Source of the DNA: Geobacteraceae bacterium
GTDB taxonomy: Bacteria > Desulfobacterota > Desulfuromonadia > Geobacterales > Pseudopelobacteraceae
Direction: 5' to 3'
DNA: 64,000 nucleotides
NCBI GenBank assembly: GCA_025355965.1
Contig: JANXYR010000062.1
Coordinates: 62,001 to 126,000, forward strand
Shown here: positions 4,412-19,242 of the stretch, in pieces
Layout: each line of letters opens with the position of its first letter
How positions within the stretch are numbered: the first letter of the stretch is position 1
Notes under the pieces: generated by a model
Told to the model about the DNA's origin: nothing
What the model saw: only the letters and a program-made list of their open reading frames with translations
The model's database searches: none
Program-made: the position numbers and the translations under genes

Positions 4412-5064
4412 CAACACGCAAACTTATCGGAACTAATCAGGAATTCACCATCGGCAAGATCGTCTGTCTGGCGCGCAACTATGCTGAGCACGCCAAAGAG
4501 TTGGGGAACGAGACCCCTGCAGCGCCGATATTATTTATGAAACCGGCTTCGTCGGTCATTGGCGATGGTGAAGCGGTGCACATACCCGCCTATTCGCAGG
4601 AATGTCATTACGAAGTCGAGCTGGCGGTCCTGATCGGAAAACAGTGCCGGGGCGTTTCGGCTGAAAAAGCCATGGAAAATGTTGCTGGTTACGGCACGGC
4701 TATCGACATGACGCTACGCGATGTGCAGAGCCAGCTGAAAGCCAAAGGGCTGCCGTGGGAGATTGCCAAGGGGTTCGACACCTCCTGCCCGCTGTCCGAT
4801 TTTGTTCCGGCCGATGTGGTTGTTGATCCGCATGCGCTGAACCTGAAACTTGCCGTCAACGGCGATGGGCGCCAGGATGGCAACTCGTCAGATATGATCC
4901 ACCGCGTACCGCAGATCGTGGCCTATATTTCGGCAATATTCACTCTGGAGCCGGGCGATGTGATTCTGACCGGAACGCCTGCCGGAGTCGGGCCGGTGCG
5001 GGCTGGTGACGTTATGACGGCAGAGATCGTCTCGGTAGGGCGCTTGACGATACCGGTCACATAG
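4408..5064 (+). CDS. Fumarylacetoacetate hydrolase family protein
   Basis: A compact 218-residue FAH-fold enzyme. The metal-binding acidic residues lie in [11 protein letters not shown], and the C-terminal signature TGTPAGVGP is present. Close short members act as acylpyruvate hydrolases or oxaloacetate tautomerase/decarboxylases; the substrate cannot be read from sequence. The ATG overlaps the gpmI stop, so it is probably co-translated with it. Confidence 0.9.
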
Positions 5065-5073
5065 TGTGTAAAC

Positions 5074-6270
5074 GTGCGAAACAACCACTTTACGCATAAA
5101 AAGCGTCTTCCCAGGTTTATCAGCCTGCTGGAACGGTTGCGCCCTTTGGAACTGCCGGTAACCCATCGTCACAACAGTGTCGAACTCTTTCATGGCGGAC
5201 GACAATTTTTTGAGGCGCTTTTTGCCGCCATCCGTTCTGCGGAACATACAATTTTCCTGGAATACTACCTCATTCACAACGATCGTCTCGGCATCGGACT
5301 GGCCCACGAACTGGAGGCTGCGGTTCAACGTGGTGTTAAAGTAAAACTTATCTACGATTATATCGGTTGTCTTGAGACGCCCGCATCCTATTTCAAGAAT
5401 CTATCCAAACATGGGGTCAAACTACTTCCCTTCAATGTCCCCTCGTTCAAGCGTGGCTTCTACTGGTTCGACAAAAGGGATCATCGCAAGATGGCCATTA
5501 TTGATGGTACGCAGGCTTTTCTGGGGGGATTCAACATCGGTGATGAGTATGCCGGTTGTGTGGCTGACAAACGGAGCTTCCGGGATCTGGGTTTCAGTAT
5601 CCGTGGCGAGGCGGTGAGTGAACTGGAGACGGTATTCCATGAAACGTGGAACGTTGAGCAGGGCAAGATTGTCACGCGGGTAGCTGCGGGAGAAGAACGA
5701 AAAGCATGCAGTAAATGTGGTGACGCCGCCGTTAATATCATCAGCGGCGGACCCAGGCAGCGGCGCTCCTACATCCGTGAAGCGTTTCAGGTCAATATCG
5801 CTTCCGCTGCAGAAGAGATCCTGATTGCCACTCCTTATTTTGTGCCTGGTCCGCGCATTATCCGCTCCCTCCTTCGGGCTGTCCGCCGCGGAGTGCGGGT
5901 GCGGCTGTTATTGCCGGCCCGCAGTGACGTACCGATGTTCCTGCTGCTTGGCAGAAGCTCATATGCTACGCTGCTGCGGGGCGGAGTTGAAATTTTTGAA
6001 CTGGAGCGCGAAATTCTACACGCAAAGGTTATGCTGATCGATGCCGAGCGGACGGTCATCGGCTCGGCCAATCTCGATCAGCGCAGCTTCCATCGTAATT
6101 TTGAGATCAATTGCCTGGTGGATAACGTACAGTTTGGTGGGCAGATTCGTGCGTTGCTGCTGGAGGAGATAGAAGGTTCCCGCCAGGTAGAGCTGGATGT
6201 TCACGAGAGGCGTGGCGTGTTGATCCGGATCATGGAGCGAGTGGTCTCACTCTTCGGGTGGTTTTTGTGA
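5074..6270 (+). CDS. cls: Cardiolipin synthase (phospholipase D superfamily)
   Basis: A 398-residue phospholipase D family protein with two HKD motifs, HRKMAIID near residue 137 and HAKVMLID near residue 314, each followed by G(G/S)xNxx. This is the arrangement of bacterial cardiolipin synthases, which condense phosphatidyl groups at the inner membrane. It lacks the two N-terminal transmembrane helices of ClsA, so it is closer to the shorter ClsB-like forms. A CxxC pair (ACSKCGDA) sits between the halves. The chosen start is GTG 5074, ten bases after the preceding stop. Confidence 0.88.
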   Translation: MRNNHFTHKKRLPRFISLLERLRPLELPVTHRHNSVELFHGGRQFFEALFAAIRSAEHTIFLEYYLIHNDRLGIGLAHELEAAVQRGVKVKLIYDYIGCLETPASYFKNLSKHGVKLLPFNVPSFKRGFYWFDKRDHRKMAIIDGTQAFLGGFNIGDEYAGCVADKRSFRDLGFSIRGEAVSELETVFHETWNVEQGKIVTRVAAGEERKACSKCGDAAVNIISGGPRQRRSYIREAFQVNIASAAEEILIATPYFVPGPRIIRSLLRAVRRGVRVRLLLPARSDVPMFLLLGRSSYATLLRGGVEIFELEREILHAKVMLIDAERTVIGSANLDQRSFHRNFEINCLVDNVQFGGQIRALLLEEIEGSRQVELDVHERRGVLIRIMERVVSLFGWFL

Positions 6271-7058
6271 CTGTTGCCCTGATCGACAGTCATTGCCATC
6301 TAGACCTGGAACCGCTCCGGTCGGGGTTGACACACATTATGGAAGAAGCTGTCGCCGCAGGAGTACAAGGCTTTGTTGTCCCCGGAGTCCATCCCGATGG
6401 CTGGGACGGCATTTCAACCGTTGCTGCTGAAAACCACCGTATTATGCCGGCATACGGTATTCATCCGATGCATGCTGGATGTGCCTCTGGTCAGGTTCTT
6501 GAACGGCTGCTGGAACTCTCTGCAGGTGGGGTCGCCATAGGTGAAATCGGTATTGATCCGTCCTATTCCGTACCGCTTGAGCTGCAGGAAAGTGTCTTTC
6601 GAGAGCAGCTCCGGGTAGCCGTCAAATGTGGTTTGCCGGTATTGATCCATTGTCGGCGGGTGTTTCAACGGGTGATTAATATACTGCGTGAAGAGCGTGC
6701 TGACGAGGTGGGTGGGATCATGCACGCCTTTTCAGGTTCTGTGGAAATGGCGCGAGAGTTTATCAGGCTTGGTTTTGCCATCTCTGTTTCCGGAACAGTC
6801 ACCTGGAATAATGCCGTCAAACCGCTGAAAATAGCTAGTGAGATACCGCTTGAACATCTGGTGCTGGAAACGGACGCCCCTGATATGATACCCGAGCGGT
6901 ATCGGGGCGTTTTCAACCGACCGGCCTGGCTGACGGAAACGGCACGGCGGGTTGCAGATATAAGGGGAATATCTCTGGAGGAGGTTGCAGAAGTTACATC
7001 CGGGAATGTTCGCAGGCAGTTGCGGATTGCAAGTTGTCCCGTGAATATAACACACTGA
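6267..7058 (+). CDS. TatD family metal-dependent hydrolase
   Basis: A TIM-barrel amidohydrolase of the TatD DNase family. Metal ligands are visible in DSHCHLD at the N-terminus, GEIGIDPSY, LIHCRR, HAFSGS and ETDAPDMIP. GTG 6267 overlaps the previous stop (GTGA), as in the other couplings of this run; GTG 6258 in the same frame is an alternative that would add three residues. Family members are 3'-5' exonucleases or D-aminoacyl-tRNA deacylases, so the precise substrate is open. A terminator follows. Confidence 0.92.
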   Translation: MTVALIDSHCHLDLEPLRSGLTHIMEEAVAAGVQGFVVPGVHPDGWDGISTVAAENHRIMPAYGIHPMHAGCASGQVLERLLELSAGGVAIGEIGIDPSYSVPLELQESVFREQLRVAVKCGLPVLIHCRRVFQRVINILREERADEVGGIMHAFSGSVEMAREFIRLGFAISVSGTVTWNNAVKPLKIASEIPLEHLVLETDAPDMIPERYRGVFNRPAWLTETARRVADIRGISLEEVAEVTSGNVRRQLRIASCPVNITH

Positions 7059-7106
7059 AAAGCCGTAAAAAACTGGCATCGATATATCGAACTATTTCAG
7101 TCAAGA

Positions 7107-7132
7107 CCTTCCGTATTCCGGAGGGTTTTTTT
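7107..7132 (+). terminator. Rho-independent terminator after tatD
   Basis: A 7-bp stem CCTTCCG/CGGAGGG (one G-U pair) with a short loop is followed by seven T residues. It ends the nadD-to-tatD run. Confidence 0.8.
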
Positions 7133-7209
7133 ATGTGTACATCTGAATGACTTATTTTGTCATATAGCAATGGTAAAAATGAAGCAGCACAGGTGGCGGT
7201 GAGGAATGA

Positions 7210-7734
7210 ATGGACAAGCGTGAAGAACGAACCGTAGTTGTTGATGTGGAAACCAGCGGCATGTCGGCTGGTAAAGGCGGACGAGTAATAGAAGTCGGCG
7301 CTGTTGTTTTGGAAGGTGGCATGATCGTAGCCGAGTTCGATTCTCTGATAAACAGCGGCGCACCGATCCATTATGGCGCCTATCGGGTACATGGTATTTC
7401 CGAAGAGATGCTGCGAGGTCAGCCGACGCCGGAAGATGCCTGGGAGCGTTTTCGCAAATTTATCGGTAATGCGCAGTTGGTTGCCCACAATGCACCGTTT
7501 GACAGCAGCTTTATCCGTCACGAGTTTTCCCTGCTCAACATCAGCTTACCAAACGCATGGGACTGCACCCTGCGTCTGTCGCGGCACAAGCTGCCGCAGG
7601 CGCCGAATCATCGTCTGGAAACCGTCTATCGATATCTGTTCGGAATCATACCGGCCTCTGTAAAGAGGCATCGCGCCCTGGATGATGCCCGGCTGGCGGC
7701 GCGGATTTGGGTGAAATTAATGGAGAATTATTAG
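7210..7734 (+). CDS. DnaQ-like 3'-5' exonuclease (DEDDh)
   Basis: A 174-residue exonuclease domain of the DNA polymerase III epsilon type with no other domain. Catalytic residues are visible: Exo I VVDVETSG, Exo II HNAPFDSSF and Exo III HRALDDARL, the H five residues before D marking the DEDDh class. It could be a proofreading subunit, a stand-alone exonuclease or an RNase T-like enzyme. It stands alone after a terminator and immediately before the REP/transposase region, with its own upstream GAGG. Confidence 0.88.
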   Translation: MDKREERTVVVDVETSGMSAGKGGRVIEVGAVVLEGGMIVAEFDSLINSGAPIHYGAYRVHGISEEMLRGQPTPEDAWERFRKFIGNAQLVAHNAPFDSSFIRHEFSLLNISLPNAWDCTLRLSRHKLPQAPNHRLETVYRYLFGIIPASVKRHRALDDARLAARIWVKLMENY

Positions 7735-7777
7735 AATTGTTTGTGAGAGAGCGCAGTTGTGGTAGGGTGCAGCCACC

Positions 7778-7803
7778 GTAGGGGCGCTTGCTTGCTGCGC
7801 CCG
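7778..7803 (+). repeat. REP palindrome, copy 1 (forward)
   Basis: A 26-base copy beginning GTAGGGGCGC and ending GCTGCGCCCG; the GGGCGC/GCGCCC arms can form a hairpin. It is identical to copy 4 on the other side of the transposase gene. Confidence 0.85.
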
Positions 7804-7836
7804 ATTTGACTCGCCCGCTTCTTCAGGAGAGGACCA

Positions 7837-8445
7837 ATGTACAATCCGGATATCCATCATCGTCGGTCGATACGGTTACGGGATTTTGATTATTCCGCAA
7901 ACGGGGCATATTTCGTAACCATATGCGTACAGGGGCGAGAATCTTTGTTCGGGTGTGTTTGTGATGATGGGATGGTATTGAATGAGGCCGGGCGGATGGT
8001 TGCCGAATTGTGGTTGAGATTGACGGAGAAATTTCCGGAAATTGTCCTGGGTGAATTCATGGTCATGCCGAATCATTTTCACGGAATCATTTGCATCACC
8101 AAAACCGTTATACGTGAATTCAACAACGGATATACCGTAGGGGCGCCGCTTGCTGCGCCCGCTTTTGATTTACAAGAATGCAACAAGGGCGCGGCAATCG
8201 CGGAAAAACAGGGCGCGGCAAGCAGCGCCCCTACGTTGGGTAAAATTATGCGGATGTTTAAATCGATTTCCGCAATCGAAGTCAATCGGATACAGGATCG
8301 TCAAGGCAGGCCATTATGGCAGCGCAATTATTATGAACGGATCATCCGGGATGAAAAGGAGTTGGCCTCCACCTCGGAATACATTGCCTTGAACCCCGCA
8401 AGATGGGCAAAGGACAAGGAAAACCCGGATTATACCGGGATGTGA
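7837..8445 (+). CDS. REP-associated tyrosine transposase (RAYT, IS200-like Y1)
   Basis: A 202-residue Y1 transposase of the HUH endonuclease superfamily. The HUH motif is in MVMPNHFHGIICI, and the candidate tyrosine nucleophile is in the RNYYERIIRDE segment. The opening (HHRRSIRLRDFDYSANGAYF) is typical of RAYT proteins, which process REP palindromes as single-stranded DNA. AGGAGAGG lies before the ATG. An in-frame insertion of two inverted REP copies encodes the low-complexity piece VGAPLAAPA...GAASSAP in a loop between the HUH motif and the C-terminal helix. The gene is flanked by identical REPs, so it is likely still linked to REP mobility. Confidence 0.92.
   Translation: MYNPDIHHRRSIRLRDFDYSANGAYFVTICVQGRESLFGCVCDDGMVLNEAGRMVAELWLRLTEKFPEIVLGEFMVMPNHFHGIICITKTVIREFNNGYTVGAPLAAPAFDLQECNKGAAIAEKQGAASSAPTLGKIMRMFKSISAIEVNRIQDRQGRPLWQRNYYERIIRDEKELASTSEYIALNPARWAKDKENPDYTGM
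8137..8161 (+). repeat. REP palindrome, copy 2 (forward, inside the RAYT gene)
   Basis: GTAGGGGCGC followed by CGCTTGCTGCGCCCG, one base shorter than copy 1. It is translated in frame as part of the transposase and pairs as an inverted unit with copy 3. Confidence 0.85.
8211..8234 (-). repeat. REP palindrome, copy 3 (reverse, inside the RAYT gene)
   Basis: The reverse complement of the REP core, ending GCGCCCCTAC on the plus strand. With copy 2 it makes an inverted pair spanning 8137-8234. Confidence 0.85.
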
Positions 8446-8447
8446 AC

Positions 8448-8473
8448 GTAGGGGCGCTTGCTTGCTGCGCCCG
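8448..8473 (+). repeat. REP palindrome, copy 4 (forward)
   Basis: Identical over 26 bases to copy 1; it begins right after the transposase stop codon and marks the left edge of the CRISPR-Cas locus. Confidence 0.85.
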
Positions 8474-8513
8474 GTTTGGAGGGTTGTGATGGTTGGGCAT
8501 TGGGGGAAGGCGG

Positions 8514-8610
8514 AAAAAAGAAGCCCGACATTGCTGTCGGGCTGGGTTCGTTCGATCCTTACGGATCGTTCTTATTGTAGTAACGGCTCTCACCCCGGCG
8601 AACTACAACT
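8514..8610 (-). ncRNA. tracrRNA of the type II-C CRISPR system
   Basis: Read on the minus strand, a roughly 97-nt RNA begins AGUUGUAGUUCGCC. Its bases CGCCGGGGUGAGAG pair perfectly (14 bp) with CUCUCACCCCGGCG of the repeat RNA; after a mismatched bulge, CUACAAU pairs with GUUGUAG. There follow a hairpin CGAUCC-GUAA-GGAUCG and the terminator hairpin AGCCCGACA-gcaa-TGTCGGGCT with a T run (8514-8519). The order anti-repeat, bulge, CUACAAUAAG, stem-loop, terminator closely matches the Neisseria Nme tracrRNA. It is divergent from cas9. The exact 5' end is inferred from the promoter. Confidence 0.92.
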
Positions 8611-8616
8611 GGTGAG

Positions 8617-8646
8617 AATATATCTGGAATAGATTTGAAATTGCAA
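8617..8646 (-). promoter_or_regulatory. Promoter of the tracrRNA
   Basis: On the minus strand, TTGCAA (8641-8646) and TATATT (8617-8622) are separated by 18 bases, placing the start near 8610, just at the anti-repeat. It lies within the 67-bp gap before cas9, so tracrRNA and cas9 promoters must be close or overlapping. Confidence 0.65.
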
Positions 8647-8677
8647 CTGTTATTTATCTGGATTTGAGGAGGAGTGC

Positions 8678-11600
8678 ATGGAGACTGTTCAGCAAAATTA
8701 CACGCTTGGTCTGGATATTGGTATTGCATCGGTAAGCGCGGCGCTACTGGCTGATGATCACATCATATCACTGTTTGTGCGGACTTTTGATAAAGCGGAG
8801 ACAGCAAAGGAGGGCGAATCGTTGAACAAGATTCGCCGGGAAGCCAGATTAACCCGCCGTCGCTTGCACCGCCGTGCTCAGCGTCTACTCAAAATGCGTC
8901 GCCTGTTTAAACGGTTTTACCTTGTCAGTAACCAGAATGATCTTTTTGATCATGCTGTGCCATTGTCGCCATGGCTGCTGCGTGCTGAAGCGCTTGACCG
9001 CCAGCTTAAGCCTTTGGAGTGGGCAACGGCTCTCTATCACATTGTCAAGCATCGTGGTTTTCAGTCAAATCGTAAAAGCGAGCTTACCAGCGATGATGAC
9101 AAGAAAATGGGTGAAAAAATGCTCGGAGGTGTGGCCGCCAATCAAAACCTGCTACAGCAGTATCGAACAGTTGGTGAAATGGTCTGGAAAGACGAGCGTT
9201 TTCAGGATGCCAAACGTAATAAAGGTGGCGATTACAGCCATACCTTTGCTCGCGCCGATCTTGCCGACGAAGTGAAGGTGCTGTTTGAAAGCCAGCGCCA
9301 GCAGGGGAATCAATTTACGCTGCCTGATTTTGAGGAGGCGGTTTTTACTCTGCTCATGGAGCGCAAACCGATGAAAAGTATTGAGGGACTGGTCGGCTTT
9401 TGCACCTTCGAGACAAAAGAAAAACGGGCGTCGAAAGCGAGCTTTTCAGCGGAAAAATTTCTCTGGCTGACCAAGCTGAACAACCTGAAAATTTCCGGTA
9501 TTGGCGTTGTCCGCTCACTCAATCAGCAGGAGAGAGAACAGCTCCTGCCGCTGCCGTTCAGCAAGGGCAAGCTCACCTATAAACAGGTGAGGAAGCTCCT
9601 TGATCTTGGTGAGGCTGACAAATTCATTGGGCTTGATTATCGAGGTGACAAAGATCCGGAGGGAACTACTACTCTCTTTGAAGCAAAAGTATTCCACGAG
9701 TTACGCCGTACATACGAGAAAGCCGGTCTTGATCTGGTGTGGCAACGTGACAGTCGCGATGTCAGCCGTCTGGATAATCTGGGCTACGCACTCTCCGTAT
9801 TCAAGGAAGATAGCGAAACCAGGGAATGGCTTCACAAGCAGGGTGTCGAAGCAGAAATCATAGAAGCGGTGCTGGGACTCTCGTTTACCAATTTCATCCG
9901 GCTTTCTCTCAAGGCGCTTGGCAAGATTCTCCCCCATATGGAAGCCGGACTGCGCTATGACGAAGCAGTCCTGGCTGCCGGTTATGCCCACCACAGCCAG
10001 ATTCAGACGGTAGGTAAAACTCGCACCATTCCTGAAATAAGCAGGGACGACATTGCTAACCCGGTGGTGTTCCGCTCGCTCAATCAGGCCCGAAAGCTGG
10101 TTAATGCTATTGTGCAGAAATATGGGGCGCCGCATGCGGTAAATATTGAACTTGCCCGTGACCTGAACAAACCATTGAAGGAACGGCAACAGATCAAAAA
10201 AGATCAGGAAAAAAACCGGGACAACAAGGAAAAAGATGTTGAGCAGTTTGTTCAAACTTTTGGCGTAACTCCCAAAAAAGACGAACTGCTCAAGTGGCGG
10301 CTCTACAGAGAGCAGAACGCCCAGTGTGCGTATAGCCAGAGGGCTTTTGACCTGAATGAATTGTTTAAGGCCGGTTATGCTGAAATCGATCACGCGTTGC
10401 CATATTCGCGCAGCTTTGACGACGGCATGAATAACAAGGTGCTGGTTCACACCAAAGAAAACCGGGATAAAGGGAACAGAACGCCGTACGAATATCTTGG
10501 CGGCGCGGAAGATTCCTTGGAGTGGCAGCGCTTTGTTGCCTGGGTTATGGGGAATAAAAGCTATCGTCTGGCAAAACGACAGAGGCTGTTGCGTAAAGAT
10601 TTTGGCATTGCGGAATCTGAGAAATTCCGCGAGCGCAACCTTACCGATACCCGCTATGCCTGCAAAAAATTCAAGCAGTTGGTGGAAACCCATCTCCAGC
10701 TTGCCGATGATTCGGAGAGTAAGCGGTGCGTTGTTGTTTCCGGTCAACTGACTGCATATTTGCGAGCCCGTTGGGGGCTGGTAAAAGTGCGCGCCGATGG
10801 CGATACGCACCATGCTCTTGATGCGGCTGTGGTTGCGGGCTGCACGTATGGGATGGTCAAGCGGCTTGCCGATTATGCGCGGCGCAATGAGCTGGCAATG
10901 ATCAGGAGAGACTTTATTGATCCTGAAACCGGTGAAATACTTGATTCGGAAAGTCTGGCGCGGGCAGAGCATCATTTCCCGCAACCGTGGGAAGGTTTCC
11001 GGGCAGAGCTTGAAGCTCGTTTGTTACCAAATCCTGCCGCCTGGCTACCTAGCCTTGTTAATGTCCCGCCGATTCGTGTTTCGCGCGCGCCGACCAGACG
11101 CGGTACGGGTGCGGCGCATCAGGAAACCATCCGCTCTGCCAGGCGTTTGGATGAAGGGATTAGTAGCGTCAAAACTCCGCTAACCGCCCTGAAATTGAAA
11201 GACCTGCCCAATATTGCAGGTTGTGGCGATCCGCGCAACAAGGCGCTTATGGATGCAATTGAAGAGCGTCTTCGACAGCATGGCGACAACGGTGAGAAGG
11301 CATTCAAAGACCCGCTGCGGAAACCGTCTGCACCAGGTAAAGAGGATGCAGCGCCAATTGTGAGGACTGTACGTCTGAATGTTACCCAGAAAAGCGGCTT
11401 GAGCTTGCCTGGGCGTGGCGGCGGAATTGCCAACAACGGCGATATGTTGCGCGTTGATATCTTCAGCAAAGGGGGTAAGTACTTTGCGGTGCCTCTTTAT
11501 GTGGCCGATGCGGTGAAAAAGGCGCTGCCAAATTTGGCGGTTGTCGCCAATAAATCCGAATCTGAATGGACAGTATTGGATGAGAGTTATCCATTCTTGT

Positions 11601-11860
11601 TCAGTCTGTATTCTAACGACTGGGTGAAAGTATCATTCAAAAACGAACCACCCAAAGAAGGCTATTTTGCCGGGTTGGATCGTGCAACGGGAGCCATTTC
11701 GATCTGGACTCACGACAGAAACCGGGCTGTTGGTAAAGATGGTTTGCTGCGTAGTATTGGTATCAAGACAGCTCTGTCGCTGGAAAAATGCCACGTCGAT
11801 ATTCTGGGTGGGTTGCATCGTGTGCGTAGTGAAATCAGGCAACCGCTTCGGCGCACATAG
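8678..11860 (+). CDS. cas9: CRISPR-associated endonuclease Cas9, type II-C
   Basis: RNA-guided dual-nuclease effector, 1060 residues, near the length of Neisseria Cas9. RuvC-I is at residues 9-20 with Asp13 (LGLDIGIASV). An arginine-rich bridge helix follows at about 53-80. RuvC-II has Glu491 (NIELARDLN). HNH has AEIDHALPYSRS with His572 and a likely metal-ligand Asn595. RuvC-III has HHALD with His712 and Asp715. All nuclease residues are therefore present and the enzyme looks active. The PAM-interacting region is the C-terminal ~250 residues; its PAM cannot be deduced by reading. A GAGGAGG site precedes the ATG. It is followed closely by cas1 and cas2, with no csn2 or cas4, which defines subtype II-C. 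Confidence 0.97.
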   Translation: METVQQNYTLGLDIGIASVSAALLADDHIISLFVRTFDKAETAKEGESLNKIRREARLTRRRLHRRAQRLLKMRRLFKRFYLVSNQNDLFDHAVPLSPWLLRAEALDRQLKPLEWATALYHIVKHRGFQSNRKSELTSDDDKKMGEKMLGGVAANQNLLQQYRTVGEMVWKDERFQDAKRNKGGDYSHTFARADLADEVKVLFESQRQQGNQFTLPDFEEAVFTLLMERKPMKSIEGLVGFCTFETKEKRASKASFSAEKFLWLTKLNNLKISGIGVVRSLNQQEREQLLPLPFSKGKLTYKQVRKLLDLGEADKFIGLDYRGDKDPEGTTTLFEAKVFHELRRTYEKAGLDLVWQRDSRDVSRLDNLGYALSVFKEDSETREWLHKQGVEAEIIEAVLGLSFTNFIRLSLKALGKILPHMEAGLRYDEAVLAAGYAHHSQIQTVGKTRTIPEISRDDIANPVVFRSLNQARKLVNAIVQKYGAPHAVNIELARDLNKPLKERQQIKKDQEKNRDNKEKDVEQFVQTFGVTPKKDELLKWRLYREQNAQCAYSQRAFDLNELFKAGYAEIDHALPYSRSFDDGMNNKVLVHTKENRDKGNRTPYEYLGGAEDSLEWQRFVAWVMGNKSYRLAKRQRLLRKDFGIAESEKFRERNLTDTRYACKKFKQLVETHLQLADDSESKRCVVVSGQLTAYLRARWGLVKVRADGDTHHALDAAVVAGCTYGMVKRLADYARRNELAMIRRDFIDPETGEILDSESLARAEHHFPQPWEGFRAELEARLLPNPAAWLPSLVNVPPIRVSRAPTRRGTGAAHQETIRSARRLDEGISSVKTPLTALKLKDLPNIAGCGDPRNKALMDAIEERLRQHGDNGEKAFKDPLRKPSAPGKEDAAPIVRTVRLNVTQKSGLSLPGRGGGIANNGDMLRVDIFSKGGKYFAVPLYVADAVKKALPNLAVVANKSESEWTVLDESYPFLFSLYSNDWVKVSFKNEPPKEGYFAGLDRATGAISIWTHDRNRAVGKDGLLRSIGIKTALSLEKCHVDILGGLHRVRSEIRQPLRRT

Positions 11861-11869
11861 GGGGCTGCC

Positions 11870-12784
11870 ATGGCGTGGCGCAGTGTAGTCATCAGCAATC
11901 CGGCGCGGCTCAAACTCAAACATAGTGCGCTTGTTGTGGAGCAGGATGCCGGAGCTGTTTCCATTCCAATGGAAGATATTGCGGTTCTTGTTATTGACCA
12001 TCCGCAGGTTACTATTACCAGTCAACTGCTGTCTGCGTGTGCCGACCACCAGTTTGCCGTTATTACGGTCGATCAGACGCACATTCCCAATGGTATTTTG
12101 CTTTCCTATCTGCCGCACAGCCGGGCTTTAAAGGTAATGCGGCAACAGCTCGCCATGTCGCTGCCACAGAAAAAACGGTTGTGGCAAGTCATTATAAAAC
12201 AAAAACTGCTTAACCAGGCATGTCTGCTACATCACCACAAACAGCGGGAAACCGCAACTCGGCTTGAACAGCTTGCAAACAGGGTGAAGTCCGGAGATCC
12301 TGAAAATTATGAAGCATACGGCGCACAGATTTATTTTTCCGCGCTTTTTGGGCGCGACTTTACCAGAAACGATGACATAGTGGCCAATGGCGTCCTCAAC
12401 TATGGTTACAGCATTATTCGTTCAGCTGTGGCGAGGAGTCTTGTCGGATACGGTTTTTTGCCCGCTTTCGGGTTGCATCACTGCAACGAGCAAAATGCTT
12501 TCAATCTTGCCGACGATCTGATGGAGCCGTATCGGCCAATAGTTGACAGGCTTGCGCTTGACCTCTGCGTTGGGATGGATGGTGAAGAAGAGCTGAATAC
12601 TTCCATAAAAGCAAAGTTGGTGGCGATGTTACACCAGGATGCGCTGCGAGTTGAAGGTGGCGTCATGTCAGGTAAATCAACGATATTGTCTCTGATTGAT
12701 GCAACTGTTATCAGCCTGGGGCAGTGTGTTTTGAATGAGCGATGCGATATGGTGCTGCCGGGCATAAACAATATTCTAAAATGA
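11870..12784 (+). CDS. cas1: CRISPR integrase Cas1 (type II)
   Basis: The 304-residue spacer-integration nuclease. Catalytic residues are visible: Glu148 in NYEAYGAQIYF, His203/204 in FGLHHCNEQN, and the acidic cluster LADDLMEPYRP. The opening WRSVVISNPARLKL is typical of type II Cas1. The ATG is nine bases after the cas9 stop. Its stop overlaps the cas2 start (ATGA), so cas1 and cas2 are probably made in balanced amounts for the Cas1-Cas2 complex. Confidence 0.97.
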   Translation: MAWRSVVISNPARLKLKHSALVVEQDAGAVSIPMEDIAVLVIDHPQVTITSQLLSACADHQFAVITVDQTHIPNGILLSYLPHSRALKVMRQQLAMSLPQKKRLWQVIIKQKLLNQACLLHHHKQRETATRLEQLANRVKSGDPENYEAYGAQIYFSALFGRDFTRNDDIVANGVLNYGYSIIRSAVARSLVGYGFLPAFGLHHCNEQNAFNLADDLMEPYRPIVDRLALDLCVGMDGEEELNTSIKAKLVAMLHQDALRVEGGVMSGKSTILSLIDATVISLGQCVLNERCDMVLPGINNILK

Positions 12785-13113
12785 GTACGGAGACGCGGCG
12801 TTTTATGCGATTGCTGGTGTTTTTCGATCTTCCAACAATTACCAAGGCGGATAAGCGAGCATATACGCTGTTTCGACGCTTTTTGCTGAATGATGGCTAC
12901 GATATGATTCAATGGTCGGTTTACGGGAGGGTGGTAAACGGTTTTGACGATTCAGAAACGCATCAAAAAAGATTGTCGCAGAATTTGCCCCAATATGGTT
13001 CCGTACGTTATTTACAGATAAGTGAAAAACAGTTTGCCAACATGAAGATATTGCTTGGAGAGAGAAAATTGCAGGAAAAAACGGTAAATGCGGCGCAAAT
13101 GTTACTATTTTGA
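12781..13113 (+). CDS. cas2: CRISPR adaptation protein Cas2
   Basis: A 110-residue Cas2, the structural partner of Cas1 in spacer capture. The first beta-strand MRLLVFFDLPT carries the conserved Asp (residue 16 from this start), and QWSVYGRVV matches the second core strand. ATG 12781 overlaps the cas1 stop; ATG 12805 (MRLLVFF) is an alternative start. The gene ends 61 bp before the first repeat; between them lies a hairpin that terminates transcription coming from the array. Confidence 0.95.
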   Translation: MSTETRRFMRLLVFFDLPTITKADKRAYTLFRRFLLNDGYDMIQWSVYGRVVNGFDDSETHQKRLSQNLPQYGSVRYLQISEKQFANMKILLGERKLQEKTVNAAQMLLF

Positions 13114-13116
13114 GTT

Positions 13117-13169
13117 CAAAAAAATGCCCGTAACCACCTGTTTGTTTACTGATTACAGGTGGTTACGGG
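13117..13169 (-). terminator. Terminator of the CRISPR array transcript
   Basis: A perfect 15-bp inverted repeat (13127-13141 with 13155-13169, arms CCCGTAACCACCTGT/ACAGGTGGTTACGGG) has a 13-nt loop. A run of seven T residues follows it only on the minus strand (13118-13124). It therefore ends RNA coming from the array toward cas2, which fixes the array's transcription direction. On the plus strand no T run follows. Confidence 0.85.
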
Positions 13170-13174
13170 AGGGT

Positions 13175-13276
13175 GTTATAGCACGCCGGGGTGAGAGAGG
13201 GAACTACAACATAAACTGTTTAAGGAAAAGCGCGATCCCGGTTATAGCACGCCGGGGTGAGAGAGGGAACTACAAC
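13175..13276 (-). CRISPR. Minimal type II-C CRISPR array: two repeats, one spacer
   Basis: Two identical 36-bp repeats (13175-13210 and 13241-13276) enclose one 30-bp spacer (13211-13240). In crRNA orientation (minus strand) the repeat begins GUUGUAGUUCCCUC and ends GTGCTATAAC, very like the Neisseria II-C repeat. Its 3' end TGCTATAAC is an extended -10 promoter element (TGnTATAAC), so each repeat can start its own crRNA in the next spacer. Both the complementary tracrRNA and the minus-strand terminator agree with this direction. The source of the spacer is unknown; I noticed no match elsewhere in the window. Confidence 0.95.
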
Positions 13277-13339
13277 CATGGTTCACAAGGTCGTCCAGTA
13301 CATCGGTTAATGCTGGTGCGACGGGCCTGAACCAAAAAC

Positions 13340-13365
13340 GGGCGAACACAAGGTATCGCCCCTAC
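13340..13365 (-). repeat. REP-like palindrome, copy 5 (reverse, variant)
   Basis: GGGCGAACACAAGG followed by TATCGCCCCTAC: the same CGCCCCTAC end and palindromic arms as the other copies, but a different centre. It lies just right of the CRISPR array. Confidence 0.7.
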
Positions 13366-13384
13366 GAATCGGTGCAAAACCAGG

Positions 13385-13409
13385 CGGGCGCGGCAAGCAG
13401 CGCCCCTAC
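13385..13409 (-). repeat. REP palindrome, copy 6 (reverse)
   Basis: Its 24-base core is identical to copy 3 (GGGCGCGGCAAGC...GCCCCTAC). It faces opposite to copy 4 on the left of the CRISPR locus, so the locus is bracketed by inverted REPs. Confidence 0.85.
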
Positions 13410-13428
13410 AATGTGGCGGGATGAATGA

Positions 13429-13888
13429 ATGGATCAGACAGCAGACGGTAATACGAAACGGGAAGTCCATCTTGAGAACGAGACGGTCTGGCTTTCGCAA
13501 AAACAGTTAGCGGAGTTGTTTCAGGTTACCGTTCCAACCATAAAATGAGCATACAAAAACCATTTATGAAGATGGGGAGTTGGAGTCTAGGGCAACTATT
13601 CGGAAATTCCGAATAGTTCAAACGGAAGGAACTCGCCAGGTAAGCAGATCGGTAGATTTATACAATCTTGACATGATCATTTCTGTTGGTTATCGGGTGA
13701 AAAGTCATGTCGCAACTCATTTTCGCCAATGGGCCACCCAACGGTTGCGGGAGTACATCATCAAGGGTTTTACCATGGATGATGTACGGCTCAAGCGGGC
13801 TGATGGAGGTAACTACTTTGACGAACTGCTGGCTCGCTCCGTGATATACATGTTCGCGGGGATGAACCGCTGTTCCGCGGCAATCTGA
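13429..13888 (+). pseudogene. RhuM family protein, frameshifted and truncated
   Basis: The first 39 codons (13429-13548) read as the start of a RhuM-type protein (EVHLENETVWLSQKQLAELF) and stop at TGA inside AAAATGA. Shifting one base at that A run restores the family sequence: EHTKTIYEDGELESRATIRK, then YNLDMIISVGYRVKSH, FRQWATQRLREYIIKGFTMDD and GGNYFDELLAR. A one-base insertion in the A run therefore explains the break. After ELLAR the reading departs from the family and stops at 13888, so the C-terminal half of a normal ~330-residue protein is gone. RhuM-like genes are common passengers of islands and are often near toxin-antitoxin or restriction genes. Confidence 0.85.
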
Positions 13889-14042
13889 GGGCATAATTCA
13901 GAATTCTGCAAGGATTTACCGTTGGGTGAAAATTAGAAAGGGATTTGGGTAGATTTGACTTTGACTCAGACAACAGAGTGAGCTGTACTTTAAGCGATTC
14001 TGTGCTATTGTTGGCCAAGTTACGATTTTTGAGGAGCGACCT

Positions 14043-14375
14043 ATGAAATATACCCTTTTGCTGCTTTCCTGTTGTGTTGTCACAACCAGCGGTTGCGCCA
14101 TGTTCACCGCCTGGAAAAGCATTCCCCCGCCGGGAGGGTGTGATCAGTGCCACACCGTGTCGATCAGCACCAACTGGCAGGTGATGTACAAACCGGCTGC
14201 AATAACTGATGAGCGCGGACGGCTCTCCTTCCAGACTCCTGAGTACAATCAGCCTTCGCTGGGTGGTCAGCAGTCACCGCTCGAAGCTAAAAAAGTGGAG
14301 GAAAAGGCCTGTTTTGACTGCCACAAATCCCCTACACCGGCGCACAGAGATCGTAAAGGGCGCTTTCATCACTAA
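14043..14375 (+). CDS. Diheme c-type cytochrome lipoprotein
   Basis: A 110-residue exported protein with a lipoprotein-like signal peptide (MKYTLLLLSCCVVTTSGC; the -3 Thr is a slightly unusual lipobox). It has two CxxCH heme sites, CDQCH at about residue 38 and CFDCH at about residue 86. It is probably anchored in a membrane facing the periplasm and carries electrons. GAGGAG precedes the ATG. The gene converges on an OmpR-type response regulator gene; a link between the two is only suggested by position. I cannot name the family. Confidence 0.8.
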   Translation: MKYTLLLLSCCVVTTSGCAMFTAWKSIPPPGGCDQCHTVSISTNWQVMYKPAAITDERGRLSFQTPEYNQPSLGGQQSPLEAKKVEEKACFDCHKSPTPAHRDRKGRFHH

Positions 14376-14391
14376 TCTTGATACTTGTTTT

Positions 14392-15099
14392 TCACTCACC
14401 TTCGCGGCTGAAGCGATATCCAACAGCGCGAACCGTCTGAAAATGTTTCGGATGAGAGGGATCGGGCTCAAAGTATTTGCGCAAGCGGACAATAAAATTG
14501 TCCAGTGTGCGTGTCTCTGTGTCACTGCTGTAGCCCCAGACCGATTGCAGCAGATCGCTGCGATGGATGGGGCGTCCCTCTTTCTGGAAGAAAAGTGACA
14601 GCACTCGAACCTCCATCTCGGTCAGGTCAATCTCCCCTTGGGCTGTTTTGGCCCGGTAAGACAGCAGAAACACCTCATTATCACCAAAGCGATACCCCTC
14701 CTCAACCGGATCCGGCCTATACCATGAAGAACGTCGTAGCATCCCTTTAACCCGAAGTAAAAATTCCACCAGATTGAACGGTTTGGTGAGGTAGTCATCT
14801 GCCCCGTTTTCTAACCCCTCCACCCGATCGACATCTTCAGAGCGTGCAGTCAGCATCAGGATGGGGACACGCGGATCTAGCTTCCTTATGGCCCGGCATG
14901 CCTCAAAACCGTCCATACCGGGAAGCATGACATCCAGAATAACAAGGTCAAAGCGCTCGATCTCAAGTGTTGCCAAAGCCCGCTCGGCGGTTTCAAAATG
15001 GCTGACACGGTGCCCCTCTTCTTCTAGGTTGAAACAGATGCCGCGTGCCAGGTGAATTTCATCTTCAACCAGCATAATATGTGGTTTGTCGTCAGTCAT
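14392..15099 (-). CDS. OmpR/PhoB-type response regulator
   Basis: A 235-residue two-domain regulator. The receiver (residues 1-120) has the acidic pair VEDE, the phosphoacceptor Asp in VILDVMLPGMDG, and the conserved Lys in LTKPFN. The C-terminal winged helix (about 135-232) has the TLDNFIVRLRKYFEPDP recognition region of the Trans_reg_C family. It lies 8 bp downstream of the sensor kinase gene, with which it forms a two-component pair. The signal is unknown. Confidence 0.93.
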   Translation of the reverse strand: MTDDKPHIMLVEDEIHLARGICFNLEEEGHRVSHFETAERALATLEIERFDLVILDVMLPGMDGFEACRAIRKLDPRVPILMLTARSEDVDRVEGLENGADDYLTKPFNLVEFLLRVKGMLRRSSWYRPDPVEEGYRFGDNEVFLLSYRAKTAQGEIDLTEMEVRVLSLFFQKEGRPIHRSDLLQSVWGYSSDTETRTLDNFIVRLRKYFEPDPSHPKHFQTVRAVGYRFSREGE

Positions 15100-15107
15100 T
15101 TATTACC

Positions 15108-16043
15108 TCAAGCTGCGGGAATTTTTATGGCAAAGGTGCACCCTTTGCCCTGGCCGTCGCTGGTTACTCCGACTGTGCCGCCATACCCTTTGATGACTGT
15201 TTCCACAATGTAGAGGCCAAGCCCGGTACCACGAACATTGTGGCCCGGTGGCTGGGCGCGGTAGAAGCGGTCAAATACCTTTTTCAGCTCTTTCCTGTCA
15301 AGCCCCCGGCCATGATCCTGTACCGAAAGGTGCAGCCATGCCCCGGTTTTGGCCAGTCGGACTGATATCTCCGGGCTTTGTGGCGAATATAGTACGGCAT
15401 TTTCAAGCAGGTTGCGTATCACCATACTCATCTCTTCCGGATCGACCTGTGCTTTTAGAGATACGGTCGCTTCGAATGAAATGCTGCCACCTTGGGGCAG
15501 GGTATTCCGCTCTCGTTCGACATGTTCATCAACCAGTTGAGTCAGGTCGGTCAGCCGCCGTTCGGAGTGCTTGCGACGCTGTTCTAAGCGGGCGGCCATC
15601 AGCAGATTGTTGATAAGATAATGGAGTCGGTCGGTGTCGGCAAGCATGGTGCTGACGAAAGAATCGAGGCGCTCTTCAGATGGTCTGCGCAAGCGGATCG
15701 TCTCCAGGTGTAGTTGGATGGAAGCGAGCGGCGATTTCAACTCATGGGTCACCTGAGAGATGATGTTGCGTTGCTGCAGATACAGGTTTGATTGGCGGTT
15801 CCAGTAGACAAAAATCACATAAACGCCGATCAAAATCAGCACCAACATGACCAGACCTTCTACCATGACCGGCCAGTTTGCTCCCTGACCGAGTAGTTCA
15901 GGGCGGTATTTTTCGGCAAGAGCCTTGAATTCTAAATGTTTACCGATAAACCAGTAGATCCAGAACACTACAACGGTGATCCAGACCAACTGGATGGCGA
16001 TCAAGGCAATAATCGGATTGAAGATGCGGCGAGTGATGCCCAT
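15108..16043 (-). CDS. Membrane sensor histidine kinase
   Basis: A 311-residue inner-membrane kinase. There are two transmembrane helices (about 8-34 and 60-82) with only a short external loop, so it probably senses within or near the membrane. The H-box is QVTHELKSPLASIQLH (His about 100). N-box NLLENAVLYSP, G1 DHGRGLD and G2 GTGLGLYIV form an intact HATPase domain. Cognate regulator gene follows directly in the same operon. Confidence 0.92.
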   Translation of the reverse strand: MGITRRIFNPIIALIAIQLVWITVVVFWIYWFIGKHLEFKALAEKYRPELLGQGANWPVMVEGLVMLVLILIGVYVIFVYWNRQSNLYLQQRNIISQVTHELKSPLASIQLHLETIRLRRPSEERLDSFVSTMLADTDRLHYLINNLLMAARLEQRRKHSERRLTDLTQLVDEHVERERNTLPQGGSISFEATVSLKAQVDPEEMSMVIRNLLENAVLYSPQSPEISVRLAKTGAWLHLSVQDHGRGLDRKELKKVFDRFYRAQPPGHNVRGTGLGLYIVETVIKGYGGTVGVTSDGQGKGCTFAIKIPAA

Positions 16044-16184
16044 AAATTTCAGTACCTTGTGATCTGAGTTGCGTGCAAGTTTCAGCTAAAATATTGAGTG
16101 TACTTTTGCATGCTTGTGCATCCATCTGCTTTCTGCTATGTTTGCGCTATACTGAAACAGAGTTATAAATTCATTACGGAGTGT

Positions 16185-16670
16185 ATGTCAATGCCCAGTA
16201 CAGATTTCAAAAAACTTAACCGGCAGATGATGATTTACCGTATCGTGCAGACAATATTAACAGGGTTGCTGGTTGTACTGGCGATAGTTTTCCAGGGTCA
16301 GTTTGCCGCACTACACAAACCGGGACAGTTTATCAGCAGTATCATCGCAGCTATCGCCGTACAGTTGCTGCTGATATATCCGGTCTACCGATTGGCTTGG
16401 CGCGATGCCGGTGTGGAAATCGAAGGAAGCCAGCCAAACTTGACACCCGAACAGTTGGCCGCTCTGCGTAAAAAGCGACTGATCGGAGACATGTGGAAAT
16501 TTTGTGGTGTGGCTTTCTATATGGTTTTTGTCGCGCTGGCTCCGGATGCAAAAAAATCGGTCGGGGCGATTCCGGTGCTTGCCTCTACAATCTTCTCGTT
16601 TCTGTTGACCTGCCTGATGTATTTCCAGTGCTTCAACTTTAGTGCTAAAAAACGGATAAAATCATTGTAG
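16185..16670 (+). CDS. Four-helix membrane protein, unknown function
   Basis: About 161 residues from ATG 16185 (ATG 16191 is an equally reasonable start; GGAG lies just upstream of both). Four hydrophobic stretches are predicted: VQTILTGLLVVLAIVF, SSIIAAIAVQLLLIYPVYRL, FCGVAFYMVFVALA and VLASTIFSFLLTCLMYF. Lysine-rich loops and a KKRIKSL tail suggest a cytoplasmic C-terminus. I do not recognise a family. The open frame extends upstream to 16098 without a ribosome site. It converges on the helicase gene across a shared terminator. Confidence 0.7.
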   Translation: MSMPSTDFKKLNRQMMIYRIVQTILTGLLVVLAIVFQGQFAALHKPGQFISSIIAAIAVQLLLIYPVYRLAWRDAGVEIEGSQPNLTPEQLAALRKKRLIGDMWKFCGVAFYMVFVALAPDAKKSVGAIPVLASTIFSFLLTCLMYFQCFNFSAKKRIKSL

Positions 16671-16690
16671 CATATGTATAACTTTTATTC

Positions 16691-16738
16691 TTTTGCAGGT
16701 GGGGTTAGCGTCTCTATTATCTAACCCAACCTGCAAAA
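16691..16738. terminator. Bidirectional terminator between converging genes
   Basis: An 18-bp inverted repeat with one mismatch, TTTTGCAGGTGGGGTTAG against CTAACCCAACCTGCAAAA, with a 12-nt loop and T/A ends on both strands. Confidence 0.85.
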
Positions 16739-16743
16739 TCAAA

Positions 16744-19242
16744 CTACCTCTTGAAAAACTCCTTCATCCTTGCAAAAATATCCACCGAATCCCCTCTGAC
16801 AATCTCCGTATCCGGCAACGAGCGGAGAAAAATTCTGCCGTAACTCTTGTTAAGTACCCGCCGGTCAAGGATCAATACCGCTCCACGATCATCCCTGCTT
16901 CTTATCAGGCGCCCGAAGCCCTGGCGAAACTTGATTACCGCCTGCGGCACGGAAAAGTCACGGAAAGGATCGCCGCCGTCAGCTTTTATTTTCTCGGCAC
17001 GGGCTTGTTGAACCGGTTCGGTCGGTACCTGGAACGGGAGCCGGGCGATGATCACTAGCCGCAGAGCCTCCCCTTTGACATCAACACCCTCCCAGAACGA
17101 ATCGGTGCCGAACAGCACAGAGTTCCCTTCCTTGCGAAACTGTGCCAGTAGAGCGTGGCGACCGGTTTCACCCTGTTTTAGCGAGGTCAGCCCCAGACGT
17201 GACAGCGTCGGTGAAAGAGCCTGGTATACTCGATTCAGCATGTCGTAGGAGGTGAAGAGGATAAAGGCGCCACCGCGCGAAATCGTCACAGCCTTGAGGA
17301 TGTGACTTTCCAACGCTTCCCGGTAACCGTGAGCAGTCGGTTCCGGCATCTCTTCCGGCACGGCAACAAAAACCTGGTTTGCGTAGTCAAAAGGTGATGC
17401 CAGCTGCAGCTCGGAAAGGCGTTCTTTGGGCAGCAGGCCAAAGCCGGTACGCTTTTTGAGGTATCCGAACTGCCCTCCTACCGTCAACGTGGCGGAGGTG
17501 ACGATGATTGTTTTGAGCTTGTCGAGGACTGTCTCCTTGAGCTGGGAAGAGATGTCGAGCGGCGCAGCGGTGAGGCGTGCCTGAACGCCGCGATTGCCGC
17601 GTTTTGTCTCGATCCAGCGGCAGTACCCTTCGGCTTCGGTCGTGAAGAACAGCAGCGCGTCAGCCATGCTCTGGAGTCGCCCCTCAATACCGCTTGTGTC
17701 GAGCAGTTGGTCAGCCATCTTTTCCTGCAGTTTCTCCGGCAGATCTTTCGAGCGTCGCACCAGAGTACGCAGTGATGAAGTATAGTCATTCACGGCATCC
17801 GCCAGAGCATGCAGCCGCTGACGGCACTCCAACCAGAAGGGTGTCCGCTCCACTTCAGGTGTGATTCGCAGTTTCTGTTCACGGCCGGCAGCGACTCCCA
17901 CTCCTGCGTCATGCTCTACGCTGATCGCCAGCCAATCCATGGTCTGCTCCGTCATTCCCGCCAGATCGTGGGCTTTGGGGAGCAAGTGGCTTTCCAGCAG
18001 TCCCGATAGTTCGTTATAAAGCCCTTCTTGTGATTCCGGCAGATCACGGGTGATTCGGGAGGAAATGATCGTTAGCAGCCCTGCCCGATTGGCTTTCTGC
18101 GGCACCAGTCGCTGCAACTGTTTGAGGATGCCACTGCGGGCAATAGTCAGCGAGAGATGGCTGGTGGCGACGTCTTCAAGGTGGTGCCCCTCGTCGAAGA
18201 TCAGACGGGTAAAGGGGGGGAGAATGGCGGTGGCATCATAGCCGGTCTCCTTGCGGAGGACGATGTCAGACAACAGCAGGGCGTGGTTGACCACCAGCAC
18301 CCGAGCGGCGGAAGATTCACGTCTGGCGCGGTAAAAGAAGCAGCGGTTAAAATGCTTGCATCGAGATCGCCCGCACTGGTCCGCTTCACAGCAGACCTCT
18401 TCCCAGGTGCCGCCGTGCGGCGTGAAAGCCAGATCACTGCGACATCCCTCCTGACTGCTGTGGCTCCACTCGATAATGCTGGTCAGTTCTGCTGAATATT
18501 CATCAGGGAAAAGGGCCGGTTCCGCTTCGGCATGCTCCAGTTTGCGCAGACAAGCGTAGTTACTGCGCCCCTTGACCAGCGCAGCTTTAAATTCCACTGC
18601 GGAGTTACGTGCCAGAAAGGGGAGATCTTTTTTGATCAGCTGTTCCTGCAGGTTGATTGTGTTGGTTGATACGACGATCCGTTCATTGTTACGCACCGCC
18701 CAGAGGATGGCCGGAATCAGATACGCCAGCGATTTGCCGGTGCCGGCTTCTACAAGCACGACCCGGTCACCGTTAAATGCTTCGGCTACGGCAAAGGCCA
18801 TTCGCACCTGTTCATCACGTTGCTCATAACCCTTGAGGTGGGCCATCATGCCATCATTGGCAAAGACGCGGCCAATCTCCTCCAGGGAGAGCAGCTCCCC
18901 TTTTTTTTCGGTGTGTGGTGCGACAACCTGATAACAGCGGTTGCAATCGTTGTCGATGATGGCAAAGCCGATGCCTTGGTTGCCGCAGACCGAGGCGATG
19001 TCCATATCGGCAGATGAAGGGGTCAGATCACCGGTGGGGTGGTTGTGAATAACAACGTCACCACCGGATGCGCGGGTGATGATGGCCGGTACGGCCACTT
19101 TGCTGCCGCGGGCGATGGTCTCGGCTTCGCAGACGACGCCATCGATGTTGGTGTGGCCGATGAAGAAAACCTCGTTGCCTTTGGCAGAGGCAATCTCGTG
19201 ACGCATCAGGGCGCGGCAATCAGTGGTAAATTGAGTTTCCAT
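16744..19242 (-). CDS. RadC-like JAB domain fused to a DinG-type Fe-S helicase
   Basis: About 832 residues from ATG 19240-19242; the frame stays open to a GTG at 19281, but that would overlap the upstream terminator. Residues about 1-130 form a RadC-like JAB domain with the JAMM signature HNHPTGDLTPSSADMD and an upstream Glu (GNEVFFIG). The rest is a DinG/XPD-family helicase: Walker A VEAGTGKSLAY, four cysteines for an Fe-S cluster (CCEADQCGRSRCKHFNRC), Walker B box FDEGHHLEDV, and C-terminal motifs SFWEGVDVKGE and QGFGRLIRSRDDRG. DinG enzymes unwind DNA-RNA hybrids and repair intermediates. A fused JAB metallodomain is uncommon; its job is unknown. Confidence 0.9.
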   Translation of the reverse strand: METQFTTDCRALMRHEIASAKGNEVFFIGHTNIDGVVCEAETIARGSKVAVPAIITRASGGDVVIHNHPTGDLTPSSADMDIASVCGNQGIGFAIIDNDCNRCYQVVAPHTEKKGELLSLEEIGRVFANDGMMAHLKGYEQRDEQVRMAFAVAEAFNGDRVVLVEAGTGKSLAYLIPAILWAVRNNERIVVSTNTINLQEQLIKKDLPFLARNSAVEFKAALVKGRSNYACLRKLEHAEAEPALFPDEYSAELTSIIEWSHSSQEGCRSDLAFTPHGGTWEEVCCEADQCGRSRCKHFNRCFFYRARRESSAARVLVVNHALLLSDIVLRKETGYDATAILPPFTRLIFDEGHHLEDVATSHLSLTIARSGILKQLQRLVPQKANRAGLLTIISSRITRDLPESQEGLYNELSGLLESHLLPKAHDLAGMTEQTMDWLAISVEHDAGVGVAAGREQKLRITPEVERTPFWLECRQRLHALADAVNDYTSSLRTLVRRSKDLPEKLQEKMADQLLDTSGIEGRLQSMADALLFFTTEAEGYCRWIETKRGNRGVQARLTAAPLDISSQLKETVLDKLKTIIVTSATLTVGGQFGYLKKRTGFGLLPKERLSELQLASPFDYANQVFVAVPEEMPEPTAHGYREALESHILKAVTISRGGAFILFTSYDMLNRVYQALSPTLSRLGLTSLKQGETGRHALLAQFRKEGNSVLFGTDSFWEGVDVKGEALRLVIIARLPFQVPTEPVQQARAEKIKADGGDPFRDFSVPQAVIKFRQGFGRLIRSRDDRGAVLILDRRVLNKSYGRIFLRSLPDTEIVRGDSVDIFARMKEFFKR

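Follow-up and report, generated by a model that had tools for sequence, protein, structure and literature searches.

To our knowledge, the choice of the insertion point for new spacers in type II-C CRISPR-Cas systems is poorly defined. In Neisseria-type II-C systems, each repeat carries an extended -10 element and makes its own CRISPR RNA (crRNA). According to the excerpted account of the minimal II-C system of Campylobacter jejuni, crRNAs start in the spacer from repeat promoters, and the repeats end with GGTAAAAT, an extended -10-like box with mapped starts (PMC3656092). Excerpts of other studies report that in Riemerella spacers are added at the array end adjacent to cas2 (PMC6008519), and that II-C arrays are particularly hard to orient (a 2025 study, PMC12638026). 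Here, we describe a complete type II-C locus within a 64,000-nucleotide stretch of DNA from a Geobacteraceae bacterium (hereafter the window), consisting of a minus-strand trans-activating CRISPR RNA (tracrRNA), cas9, cas1, cas2, and two identical repeats with one spacer. Its array is probably read antisense to the cas genes, the orientation reported in the excerpted Neisseria meningitidis (Nme) account (PMC3936727). What this analysis adds is the architecture of the leader, i.e. a terminator that points back at cas2 and a conserved stretch inside the end of cas2, for neither of which we found a published description in the open-licence literature searched. Overall, we think it fairly probable that this locus, which looks like a working II-C system, combines a minus-strand array with a leader terminator and a leader part embedded in cas2.

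The array lies just past cas2 (12781-13113, plus strand) and is annotated on the minus strand. It is made of a leader-proximal repeat of 36 nt (13175-13210), a sole spacer of 30 nt (13211-13240), and a leader-distal repeat of 36 nt (13241-13276) identical to the first. Between cas2 and the array, the leader terminator (13118-13169, minus strand) reads from the array towards cas2. It comprises a hairpin at 13127-13169 with a perfect stem of 15 bp (13127-13141/13155-13169) and a T-run at 13118-13124, and none of 200 shuffles is as stable as its fold (z -6.28), which bears out the minus-strand terminator that an earlier note on this DNA had placed after the array. The four closest relatives carry a hairpin and a minus-strand T-run at the same place, with different letters.

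The terminator recurs among related loci (numbered with the prefix L). Our first collection includes 38 loci, the window among them, and the 34 with cas2 entered a test that called for a hairpin of at least 10 pairs, with one mismatch allowed, and at least 5 T in 8, within 81 nt by the cas2 stop. Of these 34 loci, 26 have such a terminator on the minus strand and 7 on the plus strand. As controls, dinucleotide shuffles gave 51 hits in 1360, windows inside cas9 gave 17 in 680, and windows at the opposite end of the array gave 2 in 22. For a second set, positions were counted from the first repeat instead, and of the 55 loci supplied, 14 dropped out for want of a detected array or of cas2. Among the remaining 41, the minus strand matches in 40 and the plus strand in 5, while the control windows match in 17 of 820 cases within cas9 and in 4 of 30 at the far array end. 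Once loci with cas2 at least 90% identical are removed, the resulting filtered set has the terminator on the minus strand in 46 of 49 loci and on the plus strand in 9. A leader terminator pointing back at cas2 is the rule in Nme-like loci.

Minus-strand reading of the array appears well supported. The earlier note had proposed that the array is transcribed antisense to the cas genes and stopped by a terminator, and three lines of evidence agree with this: the orientation of the terminator, the degenerate repeat at the far end of the array in L005, and a minus-strand tracrRNA core in 26 of 35 relatives. Because the far-end repeat of L005 is degenerate, we take the cas2 side as the leader, i.e. 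the growing end.

The geometry of the leader is nearly fixed. The cas2 stop and the first repeat are 53-65 nt apart in 63 loci, with a distance of 63 or 64 nt in 51 of them. In the filtered set, the 46 loci that have a terminator show a leader length of 60-65 nt (standard deviation, SD, 1.1), while the hairpin spans 31-54 nt (SD 5.1) and the gap between hairpin and repeat ranges from 0 to 13 nt (SD 3.9). Leader identity is barely above that of shuffled leaders (mean 0.62 vs 0.56; 253 pairs from 23 loci), and no conserved DNA motif is found at the leader-repeat junction in 23 loci, except for a T at -13 in 21 of them. This combination of fixed length and drifting content suggests an anchor further upstream. 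Fifteen loci had no detected array, and among the 13 re-examined, nine have a repeat 63-66 nt past the cas2 stop. The remainder include L103, masked at that place, L157, which keeps the leader hairpin with no repeat match, and L125 and L166, which have neither hairpin nor repeat there.

A candidate distal leader element lies upstream, inside cas2. In the window it occupies 13069-13089 on the plus strand (TTGCAGGAAAAAACGGTAAAT), i.e. cas2 codons 14 to 8 from the end, at -106 to -86 from the first repeat; the consensus of these codons is TTT CAG GAA AAA AAG GTC AAT, at about -108 to -88. Nowhere else in the gene is synonymous constraint as strong over a run of codons when 47 filtered loci, with L060 and L061 excluded, are each compared with their own codon usage. 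Specifically, the Glu codon is GAA in 47 of 47 loci (z 11.2), the next Lys is AAA in 43 of 46 (z 24.9), and the Lys after it is AAG in 37 of 38 (z 24.5), against a background z over 100 cas2 positions with a mean of 2.46 and an SD of 4.41. The best window of five codons, which falls in the element, reaches a mean z of 16.0, and the best elsewhere 7.2. Unfiltered loci with adjacent arrays behave similarly, with GAA in 61 of 62 (41.4 expected) and AAA in 57 of 60 (35.3 expected). The opposite preference at the neighbouring Lys codons (AAA, then AAG) is not explained by codon usage alone. The idea of a cas2 element arose from the first set, and the second set, fetched later, repeated it. This stretch of cas2 is under strong synonymous constraint, and it may serve spacer insertion as a distal element of the leader.

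Loci in which the array has moved bear on both parts of the leader. Eight loci have their array at another distance from cas2. Three of these (L058, L095, and L150, with the array 233, 776, and 900 nt from cas2, respectively) are Nme-like by repeat and Cas9 match and keep the QEK-type tail of cas2, and all three use GAG at the Glu codon of the element. Their hairpin stays beside the array, which indicates that it belongs to the array. Outside cas2, a [GC]AAAA motif is found at -104 in L058, -102 in L095, and -101 in L150, with chances of such a motif in a 6-nt window of 0.104, 0.031, and 0.031. In L091, the array retains a fragment of cas2 with the element at -108.

Several observations weigh against these readings. 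The displaced-array test consists of three loci, and the motif was relaxed with their sequences already in view; in its stricter form it matches L058 and L095 and misses L150. L141 also matches, but its leader resembles, by eye, insertion-sequence DNA. L059, L106, and L114, from other lineages with longer leaders, use GAA and have no tract at -105 to -100, and L125 and L166 keep GAA without a repeat at the normal place. Among the 62 adjacent loci, one uses GAG; L060 and L061 have no element, and the window's own copy is imperfect, with the GAAAAA core kept. The z-scores are inflated because the loci are related, and elsewhere in cas2 they reach 11.5 at Tyr 71, above that of the element's Glu, and 10.3 at Asp 70. 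For the system as a whole, the -10-like hexamer of the repeat lacks a final T, and no credible protospacer was found in phages, in the genome itself, or in viral contigs, the collections searched with the spacer (plasmids were not among them).

We infer that expression would proceed as follows. An RNA would start at or in the leader-distal repeat and run through the spacer and the leader-proximal repeat towards cas2; it would pair with the tracrRNA from the divergent gene, presumably be cut by RNase III, and guide Cas9. The leader terminator would likely keep repeat-driven RNA, including any that the leader-proximal repeat starts from its own promoter-like end, from extending into cas2-cas1-cas9 as an antisense transcript. 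New spacers would enter at the cas2-side leader. The second part of this leader would be a G-plus-A-tract about 100 bp from the junction (near ten helical turns), inside the end of cas2, kept at a nearly fixed distance while the intervening hairpin drifts, and would be bound, as DNA, by the integration complex or by a bending host factor. Such a bending-assisted site would be a known kind of solution, since type I-E and I-F leaders use IHF, as stated in the excerpted text of PMC13034035. We tentatively propose, and give not quite an even chance to, a two-part leader of fixed geometry in Nme-like II-C loci, i.e. a terminator hairpin of almost free sequence and an A-tract in the synonymous positions of cas2, the latter steering Cas1-Cas2 to the leader-repeat junction, perhaps aided by a bending protein. 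If true, part of the integrase's target site is written into its own gene, the element explains the near-fixed 60-65 nt between cas2 and the array, and acquisition tests with the leader cut at the cas2 stop codon miss a needed part. The leader terminator, for its part, provides a sequence-only rule for the direction in which an array is read.

The best rival reading of the cas2 codons is an RNA signal, namely a programmed -1 frameshift site (A AAA AAG) that would give Cas2 a second C-terminus. The opposite Lys codons do spell this heptamer, and a slip heptamer A_AAA_AA[AG] is present in 35 of 49 filtered loci; yet 12 of 47 loci with GAAAA, including the window, are without it, and the -1 frame that follows varies in length between 1 and 239 residues across 62 loci, with 33 (in 11 of 62) as the most frequent value, presumably set by a stop in the repeat. 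The codons also relax in the three displaced-array loci, which frameshifting does not predict, and we regard this explanation as quite improbable. The constraint could also act on the minus-strand transcript or on the mRNA, e.g. through back-up termination or stability, and not on insertion. The minus strand of the element would indeed read as a T-run, located 30-40 nt or so beyond the main terminator, but the nearly fixed distance to the repeat seems to fit DNA geometry better, making a transcript signal unlikely in our view. Even less credit than to the frameshift goes to the notion that the hairpin is a plus-strand terminator of the cas operon, irrelevant to the array: it does stand just past cas2, and in some loci T-runs flank it on either side, giving plus-strand matches, but minus-strand matches are far commoner in all three sets, and the hairpin has remained with the displaced arrays of L095, L150, and L058.

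The single-spacer array may, by contrast with the working system we favor, be a relic that lost most of its length after arrival and now supports neither acquisition nor interference. Close relatives are longer—i.e. L003, L005, and L006 show 37, 17, and at least 9 repeats—and the window has one spacer, a weak repeat promoter, and no target found. Against phages, the top row covers 71% of a 31-nt query at 90.9% identity with E 3, and the lowest listed E is 0.8, over 18 nt, so that no match is credible; within 3 mismatches the spacer finds only itself in its own genome, and its 20-nt core has no exact match in viral contigs. The array of L003 has no match among phages either. The earlier note had suggested predicting a protospacer-adjacent motif (PAM) from spacer matches, and with neither the window spacer nor the L003 array matched, we offer none. 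No further repeat copies occur within 3 mismatches in the 3.35-Mb assembly, a draft of 86 contigs, so the shortened array could be an assembly matter. The three genes, the tracrRNA, the leader terminator, the GAAAA core, and both repeats all look intact, however, and short arrays are present in relatives too, with two detected repeats in L058 and L107 and one in L110 and L162. A relic is therefore a somewhat unlikely outcome, and we retain a working system as the preferred reading.

The earlier note also proposed a crRNA promoted from within the repeat. The minus-strand end of the leader-distal repeat, TGCTATAAC, contains TG-C-TATAAC, which agrees with the proposal in its extended -10-like element and departs from it in the hexamer, which lacks the final T of TATAAT. 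Most relatives have repeats ending in CTACAAT. On this basis, the repeat end is a plausible but weak candidate for a crRNA promoter.

The tracrRNA (8514-8610, minus strand) is composed of an anti-repeat, a CTACAATAAG core, a hairpin, and a terminator hairpin with a T-run. Its anti-repeat (8587-8600) is 14 nt long and perfect, the terminator hairpin spans 8543-8522 on the minus strand and precedes the T-run, and the fold of the region is more stable than 200 of 200 shuffles (z -3.70). The divergent tracrRNA with a 14-bp perfect anti-repeat announced in the earlier note thus stands, and so does the fold it wished to see checked on this interval. When up to 7 mismatches are allowed, 26 of the 35 relatives scanned carry a core like GTGAGAGCCGTTGCTACAATAAG upstream of cas9, on the minus strand (two more relatives were skipped, and L115 was included though its contig has no upstream stretch), with one mismatch in the window and five in the farthest match. 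RNAalifold returned no consensus structure from a MAFFT alignment of 27 tracrRNAs, and the case for the tracrRNA is therefore built on single folds and the conserved core. Upstream, a candidate promoter (8617-8646, minus strand; TTGCAA-18-TATATT) matches the sigma-70-like consensus. Such sites number three in the tracrRNA region, below the shuffle mean of 7.4, and the match is consequently weak evidence.

All three cas genes are on the plus strand and intact. The cas9 gene (8678-11860) encodes 1060 aa and matches TIGR01865 (754.6 bits), and in the profile scan Pfam HNH_4, RuvC_III, and Cas9_RuvC are all above cut-off. The protein carries GLDIG at 11, IELARDL at 490, EIDHALPYSR at 569, and HHALDA at 711, which we take to be motifs of the RuvC and HNH domains. 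The type II cas1 gene (11870-12784) encodes 304 aa (TIGR03639, 295.1 bits) with the expected E and H motifs, presumably in their usual roles. For cas2 (TIGR01573, 75.7 bits), the open reading frame (ORF) listing starts at 12742, and 12781, where an ATGA overlaps the cas1 stop, is the likely start. No csn2 or cas4 is found beside the cas genes among the scanned neighbours (ORFs of at least 80 aa, 5000-17000), which comprise TatD, DnaQ-like, RAYT-like, RhuM-fragment, small CXXCH-protein, kinase, and DinG-like genes; a neighbouring response regulator was named from its own sequence, outside the profile scan. The "complete minimal type II-C CRISPR-Cas" of the earlier note, along with its coordinates, is correct. 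Cas9 aligns over its full length with solved Cas9 structures, the best being 6jdq (E = 2e-241), presumably Nme Cas9.

The locus is an ordinary member of the Nme-like type II-C group that was laterally acquired on an island of about 7 kb (7059-13981) missing in same-genus relatives, which also holds a DnaQ-like exonuclease gene, a RAYT-like gene, and a RhuM fragment. BLAST places the edges of this island at 6988 and 13982, and the left one was shifted by eye to the TatD stop. We fetched the surroundings of the flanking response regulator from seven same-genus genomes (prefix G), and five of them (G015, G012, G027, G019, and G014) have an empty site, with TatD directly followed by the CXXCH protein and the response regulator that flank the island here; G023 and G031 match at the right flank only. 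This Cas9 was found in 0 of 36 same-genus genomes searched, and a draw of 394 other genomes from its own phylum yields a Cas9 at E <= 1e-80 in two. The phylogeny suggested in the earlier note, built from 34 of the 38 loci (L058, L105, L110, and L114 were dropped as short), nests the window among Pseudomonadota Cas9s. Specifically, it pairs with L003, a Pseudomonadota metagenome-assembled genome (support 99/96), inside a supported group of six with Rhodanobacter, Sulfurimicrobium, Rhodocyclaceae, and one further locus. GC content does not mark the island (0.498 vs 0.507), so lateral transfer is argued from the empty site, the absence from the genus, and the tree. The earlier note mentions neither this acquisition nor the cas2-embedded element, and it does not say how general the leader terminator is.

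The earlier note further held that small Cas9 proteins of this source have few characterised relatives, which is overstated. One scan gives four relatives' Cas9s at 56-66% identity, and relatives at E <= 1e-100 are found in 25 of 399, 28 of 83, and 41 of 385 genomes in three partly overlapping draws, besides the structures mentioned above. Six peptide patterns reveal no Cas9 relative in viral contigs. Four phage records match by tblastn, one of them over 98% of the protein at 36.9% identity, and 62 plasmid records match, all below 60%, with the best-ranked at 40.5%.

The island carries REP-like palindromes (GTAGGGGCGC...GCGCCC) in two places: at 7778-8460, beside and inside the RAYT-like (REP-associated transposase-like) gene, and at 13356-13409, to the right of the array. 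Within 2 mismatches, the assembly holds four copies of the REP 24-mer, three of them in the island. We considered mobility by REP elements and rejected it, as no junction evidence links the RAYT-like gene to the insertion; the profile score of this gene is below cut-off, and its stretch has no match among plasmids. The right-hand REP hairpin (13386-13405), about 110 nt ahead of the array, resembles a weak terminator on the minus strand and could shield the array from outside transcription. The DnaQ-like 3'-5' exonuclease gene lies at 7210-7734, and in the seven same-genus genomes that have a relative of it at 61-71%, this relative is on another contig than the response-regulator locus. The RhuM-family fragment (13580-13888) has an ORF matching positions 1-83 only of a 252-position profile. 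In L043 (G023:C18), a second, partial response-regulator copy with one stop inside the match sits about 7 kb from the first. Elsewhere in the window, 16744-19281 encodes an 845-aa protein with a RadC-like JAB domain and a DinG/XPD-type helicase, and SAM (37930-38029) and TPP (44835-44932) riboswitches are both on the plus strand.

Among described systems, N. meningitidis shares the full-length Cas9 match and a similar tracrRNA core. The repeat end differs, being TATAAC in the window and TACAAT in the Neisseria-like loci L099, L100, and L104, as does the 3' part of the tracrRNA. Compared with C. jejuni, where the excerpted account has mapped starts (PMC3656092), the promoter-like box of the window is read from sequence and lacks the final T. 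The type II-C system of Bordetella pseudohinzii, as far as the excerpted account goes (PMC4624362), shares the cas9-cas1-cas2 order with the array after cas2 and, upstream of cas9, a divergent tracrRNA that carries a terminator of its own. It was also laterally acquired, being absent from other Bordetella species, and has 22 repeats against the two of the window; the excerpt mentions neither a leader terminator nor a cas2 element. Rho-independent terminators are reported to flank II-C arrays, as the hairpin does here, and the excerpted part of that study examined the leader-distal side, with no enrichment (11% vs 12% expected; PMC12080349). By contrast, the terminator of the window type stands on the leader side, downstream of the array, in 46 of the 49 filtered loci. 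Finally, a published leader A-tract, proposed in the excerpted source to act in spacer integration, lies at a similar distance from the leader-repeat junction; unlike it, the tract described here is inside cas2 and is revealed by synonymous constraint in Nme-like loci.

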